Part shown: piece after piece, positions 25,419 through 33,376 of the stretch
Numbering within the stretch: the stretch's first letter is position 1
Layout of the letters: each line of letters begins with the position of its first letter
The notes under the pieces: generated by a model
What the model saw: only the letters and a program-made list of their open reading frames with translations
Told to the model about the DNA's origin: nothing
The model's database searches: none
NCBI GenBank assembly: GCA_900315875.1
Contig: ONAX01000010.1
Coordinates: forward strand, 1-33,376
Length of the DNA: 33,376 nt
Source of the DNA: an uncultured Eubacteriales bacterium
Lineage (GTDB): Bacteria > Bacillota > Clostridia > Oscillospirales > Acutalibacteraceae
Reading direction: 5' to 3'
Translations under genes and position numbers: made by a program

Positions 25419-25637
25419 TCAGCACACCTCAACGGTTGTATCGTTATATTCCGCTTTGTCGCCGACCCTGAGTTTTTTTCCTCTCATGGTGCAGACTTCT
25501 CCGTTGACCAGTACCTCTCCGCCCTGAATAACGAGCTTTGCCTGTCCTCCCGTCTGGGTCAGACCTGCAAGCTTGATTGCATTGTCAAGCCTGATGAATT
25601 CTTCGCCGGGAGCAAGTGTTATTTTTTCAATCGTCAT
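25419..25637 (-). CDS. rlbA: S4-domain RNA-binding protein RlbA/YaaA
   Basis: A 72-residue protein with an S4 RNA-binding domain across its length (IRLDNAIKLAGLTQTGGQAK and GEVLVNGEVCTMRGKKL, the RxDxxL and VxVNGxxxxxxG elements). Homologues between dnaN and recF in Bacillota are linked to ribosome large-subunit assembly. GAGGTT precedes the ATG, which overlaps the dnaN stop by four bases. Confidence 0.93.
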   Translation of the reverse strand: MTIEKITLAPGEEFIRLDNAIKLAGLTQTGGQAKLVIQGGEVLVNGEVCTMRGKKLRVGDKAEYNDTTVEVC

Positions 25638-26734
25638 TTTGCCAACCTCATAGGAACTACGATGAACAGGAAGCTGTCGCCCTCTGTCGGCATTATTACC
25701 ATGGGTTTTACCGAGCCGCTGAGGTGTATTTTTACTTCGTCTGTTTCGCTGTATCTCAGTGCGTCAAGAAGATATCTGTTGTTAAAGCCGATTTCTACGT
25801 TTTCGCCCTGCATTTCTGCTTCAACCTCGTCATGAGCCTGACCGAGCATAGTATTGCAGGTTGTTTTTATCATGTTGTTGTCGATATAGCAGCGTATCGG
25901 GCTTTTCATTTTCTCATTGAGAAGAAGTGACATTCTCTCGACTGTGTTTATGAACTTTCTGGTATTAACTTTGAGCTCTGTAATGTGAGAGGTAGGAATT
26001 GCGCTGCGGTAGTTGATGAATTCCGTTTCAATAAGTCTTGAAATCATGCTGTAATTATCTATACGGAATATTATATGCCTTCCGCTTGCAGTAATGCTTA
26101 CCTGCTTGGTATTGGGAGTGATAAGCTTCTGTACCTCCTGCAGTGCTTTTCCGGGTACAATAAAGGATTTTTCTCCTGCATAGTCGATTTTTTCGGTTCT
26201 GATAGCAAGTCTGATACCGTCTACGGAAACAATTCTTATCGTACCGTCTGCAATTTCAAAGAGTGAACCTGTGTATGCAGGCTTGTTATCGTTTTCGGAA
26301 ATTGCATAAATTGTCTGGCGGATCATGCTTGCGAGTATTTCTCCGTCAATAAGTATGCTTTCCTGGCTTCTGATAATGGGAAGCTCAGGATAGTCCTGTG
26401 CAGGCATGCCGATAATCTTGTAATCGGATCTTCCGCTTGTTATGTAAACTATGTTTTTATCGTCAACCTCAATGGTGATTTTATCCTCGGGCATTTTTCT
26501 TATAATTTCTGAGAAGAGCTTTGATGTTACTACAGTTGAGCCTTCTTCTCTGATATTTGCGGAAAGTGTAGTAGAAATACACATCTCCAGATTGTATCCG
26601 GAAAGGGTGATTGTATTGTTTTCCGCTTTTATGAGAATACCCTCGAGTATGGGTTTTACGGATTTGGGAGCTACTGCTCTTTGAACATTTGAAACCGCTT
26701 CTGAGAGGCTGCTTCTGTTACATTCAAATTTCAT
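25634..26734 (-). CDS. dnaN: DNA polymerase III beta subunit (sliding clamp)
   Basis: DnaN dimerises into the ring that tethers polymerases to DNA. The 366 residues cover three similar clamp domains of about 120 residues each; typical pieces are the N-terminal FECNRSSLSEAVSNVQRAV, LEGILIKAENNTITLSGYNLE and the C-terminal VKPMVIMPTEGDSFLFIVVPMR. A CCTCC on the + strand (26744-26748) is the ribosome-binding site. It is the first gene after the dnaA-dnaN gap and probably begins the 12-gene unit; its promoter is not obvious but would overlap the GTTGAA-core sites, allowing control by the factor that binds them. Confidence 0.98.
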   Translation of the reverse strand: MKFECNRSSLSEAVSNVQRAVAPKSVKPILEGILIKAENNTITLSGYNLEMCISTTLSANIREEGSTVVTSKLFSEIIRKMPEDKITIEVDDKNIVYITSGRSDYKIIGMPAQDYPELPIIRSQESILIDGEILASMIRQTIYAISENDNKPAYTGSLFEIADGTIRIVSVDGIRLAIRTEKIDYAGEKSFIVPGKALQEVQKLITPNTKQVSITASGRHIIFRIDNYSMISRLIETEFINYRSAIPTSHITELKVNTRKFINTVERMSLLLNEKMKSPIRCYIDNNMIKTTCNTMLGQAHDEVEAEMQGENVEIGFNNRYLLDALRYSETDEVKIHLSGSVKPMVIMPTEGDSFLFIVVPMRLAK

Positions 26735-26759
26735 CGGTTTTTTCCTCCGGTTGTCCTTT

Positions 26760-27031
26760 CAGACAAAAAATAATAATAAATATTTCGTTGTAGTATTAGG
26801 GACGGTTGAAAAGTTGAAAAATCCCGTTTTTCCTGATTTTATCATATTTTGTCATTATTTACTCATGTTGGTCTGCAGTTTATTTTCTGATGAAAAATCC
26901 GGGGGGATTTTCATTAATTAACATTCCTGTTGAATCGTGTTGGTTGAATGTTTAAAAAAAGTTGAATTTCTGAAATATCTGTTTTTTATTATTCAACATC
27001 AAAATGTTGAAAAGTTGAATAATTTTCAACA
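26760..27031. promoter_or_regulatory. oriC: Candidate chromosomal origin (dnaA-dnaN side) with variant DnaA boxes
   Basis: The 297-bp gap between dnaN and dnaA holds at least nine GTTGAA-core sites: GGTTGAAAA (26804-26812), AGTTGAAAA (26812-26820), TGTTGAATC (26928-26936), GGTTGAATG (26942-26950), AGTTGAATT (26960-26968), a reverse site (26991-26998), TGTTGAAAA (27005-27013), AGTTGAATA (27013-27021) and a reverse TTTTCAACA (27023-27031). No TTATCCACA occurs. Next to the two dnaN-proximal boxes are a GC-rich GGGACGG (26799-26805), TAG-TAT-TAG (26791-26799) and an AT-only tract (about 26765-26785), the order known for the Bacillus unwinding element. Chance expectation for the 6-mer here is well below one. 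Confidence 0.65.
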
Positions 27032-28345
27032 TTATCTGTTTCTGATATTTTTAATGATATCTTCAACTGTGGACTTGAGCTTGGGGTCCTTTTCCATTTT
27101 CTTATCCATCTGCTTGAGGGCATATACTATTGTAGAGTGATCTCTGCCGCCGAATTCCTCACCGATGAGGTTCATGGACATATTGGTAATCTCTCTTACA
27201 GCATATATTGCAATCTTTCTTGCGTTTGAAACATTGGAATTTCTCTTTGACGAGCGTATATCATCGCCGGTCAGCCCGAAATGGCGTGCAACCTCGTCAA
27301 TTATCGTTTCAACGGTAAGGGGAGATGGCTGATCGTTATTAAGTATTTCTGAAATTGTCTTCTGTGCTATATTTATTGTAATCTTATCTCCGTACAGCTG
27401 ATTCTTTGCCTTGAGCTTTTTTACTACTCCTTCAAGCTGACGGATATTTGTCTTGAGTCTTGTTGCTATGTACTCCGTAACATCGTCCGGCAATTCAATT
27501 TCGAGAAGCTCTGCCTTTCTGCGGATTATGGCAATTCTTGTTTCGTAATCCGGGGGCTGGATGTCCGCAATGAGTCCGGATTCAAAACGGCTGCGAAGTC
27601 TGTCTTCGAGAGTCTTGATTTCTTTCGGCGGACGGTCGGATGTAAGAACTATCTGGCTCTTTTCTTCGTAAAGAGTATTGAAGGTGTGGAAGAATTCCTC
27701 CTGGGTTGCTTCCTTTCCTCCGATGAACTGAATATCGTCCACGAGGAGAACGTCAGCCTTGCGGTATTTCTGACGGAATTCTGCGTTATTGTTCATTCTG
27801 ATGGCTTCGATCATTTCATTTGTGAAATCCTCGCCCTTTACGTAAACAATAGCCTTTTCGGGATTGTTTTTCCTTATTTCATTGCGGATAGCATAAAGAA
27901 GGTGAGTTTTTCCGAGACCGGAATTACCGTAAATGAAAAGCGGGTTGTATGCTCTTACAGGGTTGGTTGCAACCGCAAGAGAAGCCGCATGAGCAAATTT
28001 ATTTGAAGAGCCGACAATGAAGGTGTCAAACGTAAATTCATAATCGGCATTAATCATGCTTTCGTTAAGTTCCTTTTCATTCTGTTCAATTTCCTCAGGA
28101 ACAGTAAATACAATTTCAATGCCAGTGCCGAAAACACTTTCAAAGGCATTGTTGAGAAGCTGCATATATCCCCTGATAAGTGTCTGGCGATGGAAATCTC
28201 CCGGTACCATAAGTACTGCTTTTCCCTCAGCAAAATCCAGAGTAACGGGTTCAATTTTGCTTATCCATGTCTTGTATGCTACTTCTGTGATATTTGCCTT
28301 GCAATATTCACACACAAGATCCCAAGCTTCATTAAATGAATCCAT
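27032..28345 (-). CDS. dnaA: Chromosomal replication initiator DnaA
   Basis: DnaA-ATP binds DnaA boxes at oriC and melts the origin. The 437-residue protein has domain I (1-80), a short domain II, the AAA+ core with Walker A GNSGLGKT (140-147) and Walker B LLVDDIQF (200-207), and domain IV with the signature GGRDHSTIVYALKQM. By alignment to E. coli, the recognition module differs at DNA-near positions (Gln408 to Lys, Thr435 to Ser, His439 to Tyr), while Arg399, Arg407, Asp433 and His434 are kept. GGAGAG lies nine bases before the ATG. Transcribed on the - strand from a promoter about 110 bases upstream. Confidence 0.98.
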   Translation of the reverse strand: MDSFNEAWDLVCEYCKANITEVAYKTWISKIEPVTLDFAEGKAVLMVPGDFHRQTLIRGYMQLLNNAFESVFGTGIEIVFTVPEEIEQNEKELNESMINADYEFTFDTFIVGSSNKFAHAASLAVATNPVRAYNPLFIYGNSGLGKTHLLYAIRNEIRKNNPEKAIVYVKGEDFTNEMIEAIRMNNNAEFRQKYRKADVLLVDDIQFIGGKEATQEEFFHTFNTLYEEKSQIVLTSDRPPKEIKTLEDRLRSRFESGLIADIQPPDYETRIAIIRRKAELLEIELPDDVTEYIATRLKTNIRQLEGVVKKLKAKNQLYGDKITINIAQKTISEILNNDQPSPLTVETIIDEVARHFGLTGDDIRSSKRNSNVSNARKIAIYAVREITNMSMNLIGEEFGGRDHSTIVYALKQMDKKMEKDPKLKSTVEDIIKNIRNR

Positions 28346-28380
28346 ATATTCATTCTCTCCTGTTTCTTTAATTTATTTCC

Positions 28381-28399
28381 TTCCGCTTGTAATGCGGAA
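28381..28399 (-). other. Hairpin in the dnaA leader
   Basis: TTCCGC and GCGGAA arms around a 7-base loop in the 5' leader of dnaA, about 20 bases upstream of its ribosome-binding site; might affect dnaA mRNA stability. Confidence 0.4.
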
Positions 28400-28450
28400 T
28401 ATGTCATTTTTTAGTGTTTTTATTTGAAAAAAAACACCTATACAAGGATA

Positions 28451-28479
28451 AGTATATCATAAATTTATATGTTAATCAA
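28451..28479 (-). promoter_or_regulatory. Candidate dnaA promoter
   Basis: On the - strand TTGATT (28474-28479) and TATACT (28451-28456) are 17 bp apart, giving a leader of about 100 bases. The nearest GTTGAA-core sites lie about 100 bp upstream (28578-28609). Confidence 0.55.
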
Positions 28480-28577
28480 GCAGTGAAAAACAAATTTCCA
28501 AATATTTACGGTCGCGGTATTTTTAATGCTTACAATACTGAATAAGTAAATCACATGTAGTTCTGAAACGCTTTCGA

Positions 28578-28653
28578 CTTTCAACATTTTGTAAAAAAAT
28601 AGTTGAAAATTTGAGTAAAGAAACCGATTTTATAAAAAAAGCTCTTAAAATCG
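28578..28653. promoter_or_regulatory. Upstream origin sub-region: two variant DnaA boxes and an inverted repeat
   Basis: CTTTCAACA (28578-28586, reverse) and AGTTGAAAA (28601-28609) repeat the origin 9-mer upstream of dnaA; an AT-rich inverted repeat CGATTTT / AAAATCG (28625-28631, 28647-28653) follows. With the dnaA-dnaN sites this gives the bipartite layout known for Bacillota origins. The gap 28346-28815 has no gene. Confidence 0.5.
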
Positions 28654-28674
28654 AATAAAAATTTAAAAATTCAG

Positions 28675-28704
28675 TTGACAGAACCATGCTCTATAGTTTA
28701 TAAT
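28675..28704 (+). promoter_or_regulatory. Promoter of the rpmH operon
   Basis: TTGACA (28675-28680) and TATAAT (28699-28704), both consensus, 18-bp spacer. The leader is about 105 bases long. Confidence 0.83.
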
Positions 28705-28757
28705 TTTACGGTGCAAGGTTATATCCTGAGCTTGTCGCGCCCTTTTTGGCGTTTATG

Positions 28758-28792
28758 ACAGGTATCAGACATTGCCTGTAACTGACAATGTC
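28758..28792 (+). other. Overlapping hairpins in the rpmH leader
   Basis: ACAGG (28758-28762) can pair with CCTGT (28775-28779), while GACATTG (28768-28774) can pair with CAATGTC (28786-28792). The two stems interlock, so they are either mutually exclusive or a pseudoknot. They end seven bases before AAAGGAGG of rpmH, consistent with translational control of L34, unproven. Confidence 0.4.
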
Positions 28793-28815
28793 GTCTTTGA
28801 AAGGAGGTAGTTTCA

Positions 28816-28950
28816 ATGCTGAGAACATATCAGCCCAAAAAGCTTCACAGAAAGAAGGAGCATGGCTTCAGAAAGAGAATGTCTACCGCTAACGGCCGCA
28901 AGGTGCTTGCCCGCCGCAGAGCAAAGGGAAGAAAGAGACTTACATACTGA
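28816..28950 (+). CDS. rpmH: Ribosomal protein bL34
   Basis: The 44-residue, extremely basic protein matches L34 throughout: [21 protein letters not shown], then [22 protein letters not shown]34 sits in the large subunit near the base of the 23S rRNA. AAAGGAGG (28799-28806) lies ten bases before the ATG. It leads the conserved rpmH-rnpA-yidD-yidC-khpB series, divergent from dnaA. Confidence 0.98.
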
Positions 28951-29020
28951 TTTTTAGTCAGTCTTCTTCCGAAAGCAAATATGCATACAGTCTGTTCCTG
29001 ATACGAGAAGGTGGGACGCT

Positions 29021-29356
29021 TTGAGTGATATCATCACTTTAAAAAGAAATAACGACTTTCGCAGGCTTTATTCGAGAGGCCGCTTTTTCCTGTCTCCGGT
29101 TCTTGTTACATATGTAATGAAGAATCGCCGTGATGAGGTTCGTATCGGCATTACTTCAAGCAAAAAGATTGGTAAGGCTGTAGTGCGCAACAGATCTCGC
29201 AGAGTAATACGTGAAGCGTATCGAGAGCTTTCATCTCAGGTAAAGCCCGGCTACGATATAGTTTTTGTTGCAAGGGGTAAGACTCCTTTTGTCAAAAGCA
29301 CGGAAATTCTGCGTGTCATGAAGAAAGAGCTGAAAGAGGCGGGTGTTTTAAAATGA
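29021..29356 (+). CDS. rnpA: Ribonuclease P protein component
   Basis: RnpA is the protein cofactor that helps RNase P RNA trim tRNA 5' leaders. The 111-residue product has the hallmark [15 protein letters not shown] helix and the N-terminal [17 protein letters not shown] strand. The start is TTG at 29021, with AAGGTGG six bases before it. The last four bases overlap the yidD start (ATGA). Its 71-base separation from rpmH has no terminator, so both share a transcript. Confidence 0.96.
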
Positions 29357-29622
29357 AGCGCCCGCTTATTTGGCTTATACGTTGTTATCAGAAATACATA
29401 TCATCCGCAACTCCTCCCAGCTGTAAATACTACCCTACATGTTCTAACTACGGTATAGAGGCGATATCAAGATTCGGAGCCTTAAAAGGAATGGCGCTGA
29501 CTATCTGGAGGATACTGCGCTGTAACCCTTTTTCAAGAGGGGGATTTGACCCCGTGCCCGAAAAAAAGCAGAGGGCAAAAAGGATCAATTGGGAAAACAG
29601 GGATCATAAGGAAAAGGGATGA
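29353..29622 (+). CDS. yidD: Membrane protein insertion efficiency factor YidD
   Basis: The 89-residue protein has the family motifs: [35 protein letters not shown] and [16 protein letters not shown]. YidD is a peripheral inner-membrane protein that aids YidC-dependent insertion. Overlaps rnpA by four bases and is followed by yidC after 19 bases. Confidence 0.96.
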
Positions 29623-29641
29623 AAGGACGGGTTTATATTTA

Positions 29642-30715
29642 ATGGAGTTTATATTCAACACGCTTGGAGGTATTTTCGGTTACATTCTGTGGTTTGCCTT
29701 TTATCTTGTTAAGAATTTCGGTATTGCTATCATTATATTTACCTTTATTATCAAGATACTGCTGTTCCCCTTTTCTATCATTCAGCAGAAGTCAATGGCG
29801 TCCAATGCCCGTTTCCAGCAAAAACAGCGGGAAATCATGGAAAAGTACAAGAATGATAAGGTAAAGGCAAACGAAGAAGTACAGAAGCTGATGGAAAAGG
29901 AAAACGTCAGCCCTACGGCAGGATGCCTGCCTATGATGGCGCCTATGTTCGTAATGCTCGGCGTATGGTATGCCGTAAGAAATCCGCTTACAAACGTTCT
30001 TCATATTGCATCAGATAAGGTCGATACTGCTCTTGCAAGTATTTCAACTATTCCCGGAATAGGTCTGAATATCAACAGCCAGCAGTACGGTCAGATAAGC
30101 ATTGTTAAATATTTCGGTTATCTTCAGCAGTTTTTCGTAGACGCAGACGGAAACAAACTTTTTACATCACAGGAAACAGCAAGTATAAATGAATTCAGCC
30201 ACGGCTTTAATTTTCTCGGACTCGACCTTCTTGCAACTCCCAGCCAGAGTCCCTTTTCTTCCATGATGTGGATCATTCCCGTACTGTGTTTTGTAACATA
30301 CGTTCTGTCAATGCTGCTTACCCAGTGGCTCAACGGCACAAAGATGCAGGGCTGCATGCTTGCAATGGTATTTGGTATGCCTCTGTTTTCAGCATGGATT
30401 TCCTACAGTGTTCCTGGTGCGGTTGGTTTCTACTGGATCACATCTACAGTTCTCGGCTTTGCTCAGTCACTTATCCTTAACAAGTTCTACAGCCCGAGTA
30501 TAATGGAAGCAAAGGCCGAAGCACAAAGAGTTCTGCTGCGGCGTCAGCAGGAAGCGAATTACGAATTTATTGAAGTACCTGATTATCAGGCGCCCTCGTC
30601 TCTGAGTAAAGCGGACGTTGTAAAGGAAGTTCAGAGTAAATCGGGCAATTCGAAAAAGAAAACGAATAAATCAGGCTCTGATAATAAGAGCAGTTATCAG
30701 GGAAGAAAAAAATAA
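29642..30715 (+). CDS. yidC: Membrane protein insertase YidC (Oxa1 family)
   Basis: A 357-residue insertase, with or without SecYEG, for membrane proteins. The N-terminus EFIFNTLGGIFGYILWFAFY is typical of clostridial YidC without a lipoprotein signal. Helix 2 carries IIKILLFPFSIIQQKSM, where the hydrophilic-groove residue that is Arg in Bacillus SpoIIIJ reads Lys; the charged hairpin with EIMEKYKNDK follows, then GCLPMMAPMFVMLGVWYAV. Two or three further helices lie at about 195-300 and the tail is basic. An insert of about 60 residues (near 115-180) between helices is longer than in Bacillus. The ATG at 29642 is chosen for family match; the ribosome-binding site is weak (ACGGG at 10 bases). 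Confidence 0.96.
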   Translation: MEFIFNTLGGIFGYILWFAFYLVKNFGIAIIIFTFIIKILLFPFSIIQQKSMASNARFQQKQREIMEKYKNDKVKANEEVQKLMEKENVSPTAGCLPMMAPMFVMLGVWYAVRNPLTNVLHIASDKVDTALASISTIPGIGLNINSQQYGQISIVKYFGYLQQFFVDADGNKLFTSQETASINEFSHGFNFLGLDLLATPSQSPFSSMMWIIPVLCFVTYVLSMLLTQWLNGTKMQGCMLAMVFGMPLFSAWISYSVPGAVGFYWITSTVLGFAQSLILNKFYSPSIMEAKAEAQRVLLRRQQEANYEFIEVPDYQAPSSLSKADVVKEVQSKSGNSKKKTNKSGSDNKSSYQGRKK

Positions 30716-30729
30716 CAGGGGGTTAAAAA

Positions 30730-31626
30730 ATGATTAAAGAAGTTACGGTTACAGCCGAAACAATAGAAGAAGCAGAACAAAAAGCACGCGAACAGCTTGG
30801 CAGAGATGAAATTAACGTTGAGGTTCTGCAGCAGCCCGAAAAGAAAAAATTCGGCCTGTTCGGCGGCAATCCTGCAAAAATCAGAGCATATATCGAGCTT
30901 GCACCCGTTGACTGCGCAAAGGAATATCTTGAGGATATTCTTGGCAAGATGGGAATCAGCGGCTTTGAGCTTACAAGTGAGGAAATTGAAGGCGGCGCAG
31001 TAATCAATATTGAGGGCGACGACATTGGATTCATTATCGGACACAGAGGAGAAACCCTCGACGCACTGCAGTACCTGACAGGTCTTGTAGCAAACCACGT
31101 TGACAATGAATACTACAGAATTTCGATAAACATCGGTAACTATCGTGAAAAGAGAGAAAAGACACTTGAAATTCTCGGCAGAAAGCTTGCTTTCAAGGCA
31201 GTAAAGACCGGTGCAAAAACTTCTCTTGAACCGATGAACCCCTACGAGAGAAGAATAATCCATACAGCAGTTCAGAAGGTAAGAGGTGCTACCTCATGGA
31301 GTGAGGGCGAAAACCTGCAGCGTCACGTTGTAATTGGTCCCGATCCCGAGTATAAGCCCTCATATCGTGAAAGAGGCGGCTACGGCAGAGTCAGACGTCA
31401 GAGCAATTTCAATAAGGACGGCTCATATAACCGCAGACCCCGTACTACCGGATATCAGCGCAGAGTTTACAGTGAGGACGAGGCTCATCCGCAGGACAGC
31501 ATGTTCTCCAGCTTTGAAAACGACAGCTCCTCAGAGCGCGTAAGAGAAAGCATTAACGAGCGCCCCGATACTTCCCTTTACGGAAAGATTGAAATCAGAA
31601 AGCGTCCGGAAAGTGAAGAAGAATAA
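30730..31626 (+). CDS. khpB: RNA-binding protein KhpB (Jag): Jag_N, KH and R3H domains with a long tail
   Basis: KhpB with KhpA binds many small and messenger RNAs in Bacillota and affects cell division. The 298-residue product has Jag_N (1-52, KKKFGLFGG), a KH domain (about 80-150) with FIIGHRGETLDALQ containing the GxxG loop (104-107), and R3H (about 150-208) with RRIIH. Beyond about 210 there is a ~90-residue tail rich in Arg, Gly, Tyr and Ser, not seen in the ~205-residue Bacillus protein, likely disordered and RNA-binding. AGGGGG precedes the ATG, 14 bases after yidC. A terminator follows. Confidence 0.95.
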   Translation: MIKEVTVTAETIEEAEQKAREQLGRDEINVEVLQQPEKKKFGLFGGNPAKIRAYIELAPVDCAKEYLEDILGKMGISGFELTSEEIEGGAVINIEGDDIGFIIGHRGETLDALQYLTGLVANHVDNEYYRISINIGNYREKREKTLEILGRKLAFKAVKTGAKTSLEPMNPYERRIIHTAVQKVRGATSWSEGENLQRHVVIGPDPEYKPSYRERGGYGRVRRQSNFNKDGSYNRRPRTTGYQRRVYSEDEAHPQDSMFSSFENDSSSERVRESINERPDTSLYGKIEIRKRPESEEE

Positions 31627-31680
31627 AAAAATATACTTCGTCCAGAGCGGCGAAGGGCTGATGTTTTATTGACCACCGTA

Positions 31681-31718
31681 AGGGGATGCCCGTTTCCGGG
31701 CGTCCCCTATTTTAAAAT
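31681..31718 (+). terminator. Terminator of the rpmH-khpB operon
   Basis: AGGGGATGCCCG (31681-31692) and CGGGCGTCCCCT (31697-31708), a 12-bp stem with one G-T pair and loop TTTC, followed by ATTTTAAAAT. Confidence 0.85.
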
Positions 31719-31759
31719 CAGATTACTGTTTGCGGCTTTTGGCGATGAGAAATCAGAGC

Positions 31760-31777
31760 ATGACAGTATTCTGTCAT
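31760..31777 (+). other. Hairpin abutting the mnmE ribosome-binding site
   Basis: ATGACAG (31760-31766) and CTGTCAT (31771-31777), perfect stem with loop TATT, ends two bases before GGAGG of mnmE. Confidence 0.45.
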
Positions 31778-31789
31778 ATGGAGGTTATT

Positions 31790-33154
31790 ATGGAAAAGAC
31801 AATAGCAGCAATTTCGACACCGAACGGTGCCGGTGGAATGGGTGTTATCAGAATATCCGGCGAAAATGCGCTTGCAGTTGCTGAAAGTGTTTTCAGCTCC
31901 GTTTCAGGAAAAAAGATTTCGGAAATGAAGGGCTATACAGCATCATTCGGAAAAATTATGGATGATGATGAAATGATTGACGAGGCTGTTGCACTTGTTT
32001 TCCGCGCTCCGCACAGCTATACCGGAGAGGATGTAGTCGAAATCTCCTGTCATGGCGGAATGTATGTGACCAGACGAGTGCTAAGGGCAGTTATTTCACA
32101 CGGCGCAGCTCCTGCAGGACCCGGAGAATTTACGAAAAGAGCATTTCTAAACGGAAAAATGGGTCTGACAGAGGCAGAATCCGTTATGGATATCATTTCC
32201 GCAAACGGGGAACAGTCAGCAAGAGCTGCTCTCGGAATAAAGGAAGGCAGACTTCGCAGGAAAATTGACGAGGTACGCACGCAGCTTATTACTCAGGCAG
32301 CACACCTTGCAGCATGGGCTGATTATCCGGAGGACGAAATACCGGAGGTCGACGAAACCGAGCTTAAAGCAGCGCTTTACGATTCTGCTGAAAAGCTGTC
32401 TGCACTGCTTAAAACCTATGACGCAGGAAAGCTAATGAGAGAAGGCGTGGATACTGTTATCGCAGGAAAGCCTAATGTGGGAAAATCGACGCTTATGAAT
32501 CTGCTGTCCGGCTGCGAGCGTTCCATTGTAACAAATATTCCCGGCACTACGAGGGATATTATTGAAGAAACGGTTATCCTCGGCGGTATTCCGCTGAGAC
32601 TGAGCGATACTGCAGGAATACGCACAACGGATGATCCCGTTGAAAGCATAGGCGTCAGCCGTGCAAGGGACAGACTGCTGTCTGCGGGGCTTGTTTTTGC
32701 TGTTTTTGATGCAAGCATTCCGCTGACGGACGATGACCGGGAGCTTATTTCTCTGCTTGAAAATGCTCCGGCTGTTGCAGTTATCAACAAAACTGATCTT
32801 GATGTTAAAATCGACGACGCATTTATCAGGGAAAGGATAAAGCATGTTGTAAGTATTTCTGCCAAAAACGGCAGCGGTATTTCTGAGCTGGAGGCGCAGG
32901 TCAGTCAGATAGTAGGTGCGTCAGGTCTGGATACAACACAGGGAATTCTTGCAACAGAGCGACAGAAGGCAGACGCACAAAAAGCCCTGACTCTGATAGA
33001 GGAAGCCCGTCTTGCGCTTGACGCCGGAGTTACACTTGATGCGGTAACGGTCGTTATAGAGGATGCGATTGACAGCCTGCTGGAGCTTACGGGAGAAAGA
33101 GTGACAGAAGCTGTTGTCGATAAGGTGTTTTCTCAGTTCTGCGTGGGTAAATAG
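31790..33154 (+). CDS. mnmE: tRNA uridine-5-carboxymethylaminomethyl(34) synthesis GTPase
   Basis: MnmE with MnmG modifies wobble U34 of certain tRNAs using methylene-tetrahydrofolate and GTP. The 454-residue protein has the N-terminal folate-binding domain (1-120, AAISTPNGAGGMGVIRISG), helical domain, G domain with GKPNVGKS (226-233), DTAG (273-276) and NKTD (333-336), and the C-terminal FCVGK with the invariant Cys. GGAGG lies five bases before the ATG at 31790; the in-frame extension upstream to 31730 is not family-like. Its usual partner mnmG would be expected just beyond the window. Confidence 0.97.
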   Translation: MEKTIAAISTPNGAGGMGVIRISGENALAVAESVFSSVSGKKISEMKGYTASFGKIMDDDEMIDEAVALVFRAPHSYTGEDVVEISCHGGMYVTRRVLRAVISHGAAPAGPGEFTKRAFLNGKMGLTEAESVMDIISANGEQSARAALGIKEGRLRRKIDEVRTQLITQAAHLAAWADYPEDEIPEVDETELKAALYDSAEKLSALLKTYDAGKLMREGVDTVIAGKPNVGKSTLMNLLSGCERSIVTNIPGTTRDIIEETVILGGIPLRLSDTAGIRTTDDPVESIGVSRARDRLLSAGLVFAVFDASIPLTDDDRELISLLENAPAVAVINKTDLDVKIDDAFIRERIKHVVSISAKNGSGISELEAQVSQIVGASGLDTTQGILATERQKADAQKALTLIEEARLALDAGVTLDAVTVVIEDAIDSLLELTGERVTEAVVDKVFSQFCVGK

Positions 33155-33166
33155 ATATTTGAGAAG

Positions 33167-33195
33167 GGAATGTTCTTGATGGACATTCCTTTTTT
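33167..33195 (+). terminator. Terminator of mnmE
   Basis: GGAATGT (33167-33173) and ACATTCC (33183-33189) followed by six T's, 12 bases after the stop. Confidence 0.8.
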
Positions 33196-33303
33196 GTAAT
33201 TTAGAATCTGTTATACGGCGGTTTACAGTTTCTGATATGAAAATTATTATTTGAGATAACAGAATCGCTGCAAAACTACTATCTCGGCTTGCGCCGGGCA
33301 CCT

Positions 33304-33357
33304 CATCAGTCGACGTCCGGCTTCGCCGTATGTCGACAGCTTCCCCAGAGGGGAAGC
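33304..33357. repeat. Palindromic intergenic repeat at the window edge
   Basis: Two GTCGAC sites (33309-33314, 33332-33337) flank GTCCGGCTTCGCCGTAT, followed by the perfect stem GCTTCCCC / GGGGAAGC (33339-33346, 33350-33357). This combination resembles a dispersed repeat common in gut Bacillota; the neighbouring 33196-33303 shows no gene. Confidence 0.55.
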
Positions 33358-33376
33358 CTGTTTTCTACCACCGAAT

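Follow-up and report, generated by a model that had tools for sequence, protein, structure and literature searches.

The window, which denotes the whole stretch of 33,376 nucleotides analyzed here, makes up an entire contig (C56) of a genome of 2.26 Mb in 104 contigs. It carries dnaA (27032..28345, minus strand; 437 aa, Pfam Bac_DnaA 238 bits and Bac_DnaA_C 89.5 bits) and dnaN (25634..26734, minus strand; 366 aa, three DNA_pol3_beta domains), separated by a gap of 297 bp (26735..27031), the putative unwinding half of oriC. A single dnaA is present in the genome, the second match of the DnaA ATPase search reaching 37 bits vs. 241 bits for the first. The gene order rpmH-dnaA-dnaN (with rpmH named from its position and a short open reading frame), boxes flanking dnaA on either side and a turn of the GC skew were found, i.e., the features by which the bipartite oriC of Firmicutes is recognized. 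The cumulative G-C minimum of the contig lies at position 25843 inside dnaN, 0.9 kb from the gap, so that the skew turns within about 1 kb of it, as anticipated by an earlier note on this DNA. Values are -0.074 for positions 1-25500 and +0.075 for 27032-33376, with mixed skew between 25.5 and 28.5 kb. As the genome is split into 104 contigs, the skew was followed per contig rather than as a whole-chromosome curve. In another genome of the family (G162), eight of ten skew samples left of dnaA were negative and eight of nine on its right positive, the values close to dnaA being weak.

The earlier note had reported at least nine 9-mers with a GTTGAA core in the gap and the lack of the classical DnaA box. 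Exactly nine GTTGAA/TTCAAC cores are present, and TTATCCACA is absent from the dnaA-dnaN gap of the window even if one mismatch is allowed. In 3000 dinucleotide shuffles of the gap, GTTGAA appeared 0.40 times on average and three times at most, and hexamers with at least two G/C never exceeded seven copies. Since some hexamer reached at least nine in 438 of these shuffles, with A/T-rich ones attaining nine, the nine-core claim stands on GTTGAA itself. The nine comprise two boxes next to dnaN, which are described below, five on the minus strand at 26928..26936 (TGTTGAATC as read on the plus strand), 26942..26950 (GGTTGAATG), 26960..26968 (AGTTGAATT), 27005..27013 (TGTTGAAAA) and 27013..27021 (AGTTGAATA, in 8-bp register with the preceding box), and two on the plus strand at 26990..26998 (TATTCAACA) and 27023..27031 (TTTTCAACA). 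Exact copies of TGTTGAAAA are found at 27005-27013 and 27023-27031 only. As claimed, this 9-mer has two mismatches in nine bases to TGTGGATAA; against the wider consensus TTWTNCACA there is a single one, at base 6, where all nine cores carry A instead of the classical C. The rest of the window (33,079 bp) contains 26 cores, two of them in the dnaA-rpmH gap at 28578..28586 (plus strand, CTTTCAACA) and 28601..28609 (minus strand, AGTTGAAAA as read on the plus strand). These upstream boxes may represent either the other half of a bipartite origin or a control site of dnaA.

For comparison, the best 80 loci of a scan of named genomes and further relatives were collected, the cultured relative Pseudoruminococcus massiliensis (L007) among the sampled rows. 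This gave 253 loci, of which 243 yielded distinct DnaA proteins and 225 had a gap of 80-900 bp. The term genus is used here for rows with at least 77% DnaA identity (37 including the window, five named records; the next identity is 72%), and further lineages are addressed by their DnaA residue 439 as Y439 or H439 lineages. In the 37 gaps of the genus, GTTGAA was enriched more than any other hexamer (276 vs. 17.5 expected), which bears out the conservation that the earlier note had proposed to look for, followed by TCAACA (230 vs. 18.1) and the trio sequence CTACTA (52 vs. 1.7). The C-type hexamer GTGGAA was enriched as well (48 vs. 7.0), and no enrichment in these gaps was found for TCTACA (2 vs. 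4.8) and GTGGAT (6 vs. 4.6). Core density in the genus amounted to 22.5 per kb in the gap vs. 0.74 in dnaA, and upstream of dnaA GTTGAA occurred 57 times in 34 genus loci (17.1 expected). In the window's own genome, TTTTCAACA was found at 104 places vs. 10 for its reversed control and TTTTCCACA at 48 vs. 21, counts in which coding bias is possible; being that frequent, the 9-mer TTTTCAACA alone has no power to mark an origin. In the open-licence literature, no paper was found that links TTTTCAACA to a DnaA box or TGTTGAAAA to a replication origin, or that deals with DnaA boxes at the oriC of Ruminococc taxa.

The dnaN-side end of the gap shows the order described by the earlier note, i.e., boxes, a GC-rich heptamer, TAG-TAT-TAG and an AT-only tract. 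On the minus strand, module box 1 (26812..26820, TTTTCAACT) is located 21 bp before the first trio and module box 2 (26804..26812, TTTTCAACC) in 8-bp register with box 1. They are followed by a GC-rich spacer (26799..26805, GGGACGG on the plus strand), whose margins reach into the ends of box 2 and the first trio, a run of three DnaA-trios (26791..26799, CTA ATA CTA on the minus strand, 3'-GAT TAT GAT-5' on the other) continued by CAA CGA, and an A/T-only tract (26765..26785) as putative melting site. Read on the dnaA strand, the genus alignment features the same block of two tandem boxes, GC-rich spacer, CTA-type trios and AT-rich DNA, with a homologous module in 36 of 37 gaps. The score of the window module was reached by none of 1500 shuffles. 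The module rule, which scores A and C at base 6 equally and G and T lower, is lenient: out of 740 shuffled gaps it accepted 124, including 43 at -21, and was therefore rejected as a proof by itself. Frequencies given for modules rest on 36/37 gaps of the genus, 106/123 of other Y439 lineages, 55/59 of H439 lineages and 5/6 further gaps.

The TTCAAC-type box 1 lies at -21 from the first trio in 36/37 genus gaps, and 47 of the 55 modules from H439 lineages have the same spacing; box 1 is exactly TTATCCACA in 29/60 modules (H439 plus five lineages with another residue at 439). This common position makes the sites positionally homologous to classical DnaA boxes. Measured against the published rules for the basal unwinding system (BUS) of Bacillus (PMC8287927), which ask for at least three trios with a fixed middle base, the window has exactly three, the published minimum, vs. 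five in 26/36 genus modules. Its -21 distance and 8-bp tandem register are like those of the Bacillales rows. With three mismatches each to TTATCCACA, boxes 1 and 2 exceed the BUS limit of two and agree with the rule only if a species-specific box is used, which it permits (PMC8287927). As both module boxes are more than two mismatches away from TTATCCACA in 23 of 36 genus modules, a search for this motif with two mismatches would miss both in these origins.

Placed between dnaA and dnaN, the gap most probably (probability of about 0.88) forms the unwinding half of an oriC that is bipartite and of Bacillus type, in which the box would be the classical site with either A or C at base 6. This reading draws on the enrichment of the repeats, their fixed place relative to the trios, the exchange between A and C in aligned boxes, the changed contact residues of DnaA and the turn of the skew, all of which are shown here at sequence level. 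DnaA would then bind and open strands at the gap: domain IV would bind TTTTCAACA-type boxes, the tandem pair at 26804-26820 would guide a DnaA oligomer onto the trios at 26791-26799, and this oligomer would stretch the trio strand, whereupon the A/T tract at 26765-26785 would melt. The Bacillus-like architecture suggested by the earlier note is borne out by box, GC-rich, trio and AT order and by the 21-bp spacing, which match those of Bacillales and others.

Base 6 deserves separate consideration. In the 36 module boxes of the genus, bases 4, 7 and 8 are fixed and base 6 of box 1 is always A, with T at base 1 in 17, base 2 in 30 and base 3 in 29 boxes, and A (17) or T (19) at base 9. Over whole gaps of the genus, base 6 of the pattern [TA]TTC?AC was A 265, C 47, G 2 and T 1 times, as compared with A 285, C 305, G 10 and T 11 times in 123 other Y439 lineages. 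Of 14 box columns that are well held in the genus alignment, 9 show both A and C and none G or T, and the A/C type switches at least 33 times over the 171 of 225 rows placed in the tree. The genus thus marks the A-rich extreme of a broad spectrum of boxes that carry either A or C at this base.

A reading with an about even chance is that DnaA, its specificity unchanged, binds A and C equally well, base composition deciding which of the two letters is found. In line with this, the A share drops as the GC content of dnaA rises (rho -0.60 for 135 of 160 Y439 gaps, i.e., those with at least three boxes, and -0.48 for 99 outside the genus), albeit the trees give too few independent pairs for this GC link. 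Low-GC lineages outside the genus have A shares equal to gap composition (0.80 vs. 0.77, 0.71 vs. 0.72 and 0.65 vs. 0.69). Nevertheless, the genus exceeds composition (0.92 vs. 0.70 in its largest bin), A is scarcer than composition predicts in high-GC lineages (0.25 vs. 0.51), and G and T hardly occur. Strict neutrality of base 6 thus fits the low-GC lineages outside the genus and fails for the genus and the high-GC lineages. What the genus adds to the wide tolerance of A is that A is nearly fixed beyond composition.

The contacts of the window DnaA (E. coli numbers) read R399, N423, R432, D433, H434, S435, V438 and Y439. Six contacts, R399, P423, D433, H434, T435 and H439, were described as conserved in Firmicutes and E. 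coli (PMC7561715), and at these positions the window has R, N, D, H, S and Y. S435 and Y439 occur in 37/37 genus DnaA proteins, and residue 423 is N (26), K (10) or S (1). At equal GC content (bin 0.30-0.38), the A share is 0.84 for Y439 vs. 0.27 for H439, which at first pointed to a link between N423, S435, Y439 and A at base 6. The DnaA of the genus could have switched its preference at base 6 from C to A with the substitutions at 423, 435 and 439, the boxes at the origin and at conserved non-origin arrays having followed, which is doubtful. Under such a switch, initiator and sites would have changed stepwise with intermediates still alive (mixed origins, L191), a course that we consider similarly questionable. 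Both are rated this low because A at base 6 occurs with unchanged contacts: the 59 H439 lineages consist of 32 Bacillales, assigned by record title, with A in 2/47 boxes (A 2, C 45), and 27 others (A 34, C 43). Of these non-Bacillales, 13 retain each of the six classical contacts, and A was found in 16/36 of their boxes (C in 20). This count also favors the equal binding of A and C and undercuts Y439 (or S435, N423) as the cause of the A preference, for which the tree supplies too few independent pairs. Compared with these 16/36 boxes, the strict C at base 6 is a Bacillales habit in this sample. As to the changed box that the earlier note proposed for this lineage, the 9-mer does replace the classical box and would be what DnaA uses, but it is shared with other lineages. 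The amino group common to A and C might be read by an acceptor, for instance D433; in the literature excerpts consulted, no assignment of base 6 to a DnaA residue was found.

Further variation was observed across the sample. D433/H434 is replaced (HY, NY, HH) in L121, L124, L133, L146, L150, L030 and others, and in the 35 gaps whose DnaA lacks D433, base 6 is still mostly A or C (A 77, C 33, G 4 and T 3 times). Anaerotruncus colihominis (L016/L017) has a C-type origin. The 464-bp dnaA-dnaN gap of L191 (genome G083) combines 11 TTCAACA with 9 TTCCACA boxes, its helix-turn-helix reading HHSTIVY. L080 has TTATGCACA-like boxes (GCATAA and ATGCAC, four each) and the helix-turn-helix KTHTTVMY, and matches TTWTNCACA at base 5.

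The repeats also resemble the Spo0A box TGTCGAA, from which TGTTGAA is one base off and which is known at the oriC of B. subtilis, where Spo0A boxes overlap DnaA boxes (PMC5295017). They could accordingly serve to restrain replication in sporulation, and Spo0A is encoded in the window genome, in 59/64 genus genomes and in all 26 near-complete ones, so that its loss is unusable as a test. This explanation is nonetheless very improbable: the CG core is absent here, TCGACA occurring once in the 37 genus gaps, below the 4.0 expected, aligned box columns allow A or C only, and since the window gap is without any other DnaA box, the initiator would have no sites there. Spo0A might additionally bind at some of the sites.

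The same boxes occur away from the origin. The gap between rsmG and a parB/noc-like gene (L277:1278-1441, own genome C81:5277-5440; L284-L313) carries inverted box pairs 22-23 bp apart in 24/29 genus loci, 31 pairs in total, with a box density of 8.8 per kb upstream of the noc-like gene vs. 0.58 within it. In B. subtilis, DnaA was reported as a repressor of trmE-noc (PMC4447404). Near noc, the 9-mers form long palindromes, one then followed by a T run, and the pair adjoining rsmG is also a terminator-like palindrome, which would suit sites of another protein or terminator halves, with DnaA using weaker, unlisted sites. This is hardly credible, as the gap sites hold a fixed box position before the trios and C on the left faces T on the right in 6/31 noc pairs, which breaks hairpin pairing. 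A candidate DnaA-binding cluster outside the origin lies upstream of a DUF218 gene (L279:981-1095, own genome C39:22480-22594; L314-L328), where 5-7 DnaA-type boxes within 130 bp recur with the same spacings in 12/30 genus loci, one of the 30 spanning just 146 bp there. Among the 11 loci that share one particular box of this array, 4 have it in the A-type and 7 in the C-type form, as counted on the alignment. In B. subtilis, the joint deletion of six DnaA-box clusters led to early initiation (PMC5295017). The arrays suggest a single protein that may read A or C at base 6 in several places.

These origins bear on the question of how the specificity of an essential initiator shifts in concert with that of its many sites. 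With A-type, C-type and mixed origins and the conserved module as a ruler, this question becomes testable with few purified proteins.

Among known systems, the B. subtilis BUS (PMC8287927) shares tandem boxes in 8-bp register, a GC-rich spacer, at least three trios, AT-rich DNA and the location on the dnaN side; the window differs by the mismatches of its boxes to TTATCCACA, past the limit for the better box under the standard motif. The oriC2 of C. difficile (PMC7561715) likewise has its unwinding half between dnaA and dnaN, with trios CTACTACTATTACTACTA, and the boxes of its module (L046), TTATTAACA and TTATCAACA, carry A at base 6 like those of the window. It differs in its six classical contacts, in A at base 3 and in the authors' consensus TTWTNCACA (PMC7561715). 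The cyanobacterial box TTTTCCACA (PMC10225481) features T at base 3 as here and reads identically to the C-type boxes of the relatives, but differs from the window box by C at base 6. Whereas the change in epsilonproteobacterial boxes (PMC5043019) is T at base 5 and was footprinted, and the one described here concerns base 6, both cases have in common a one-base shift of the box alongside DnaA variation at 435 and 438-439.
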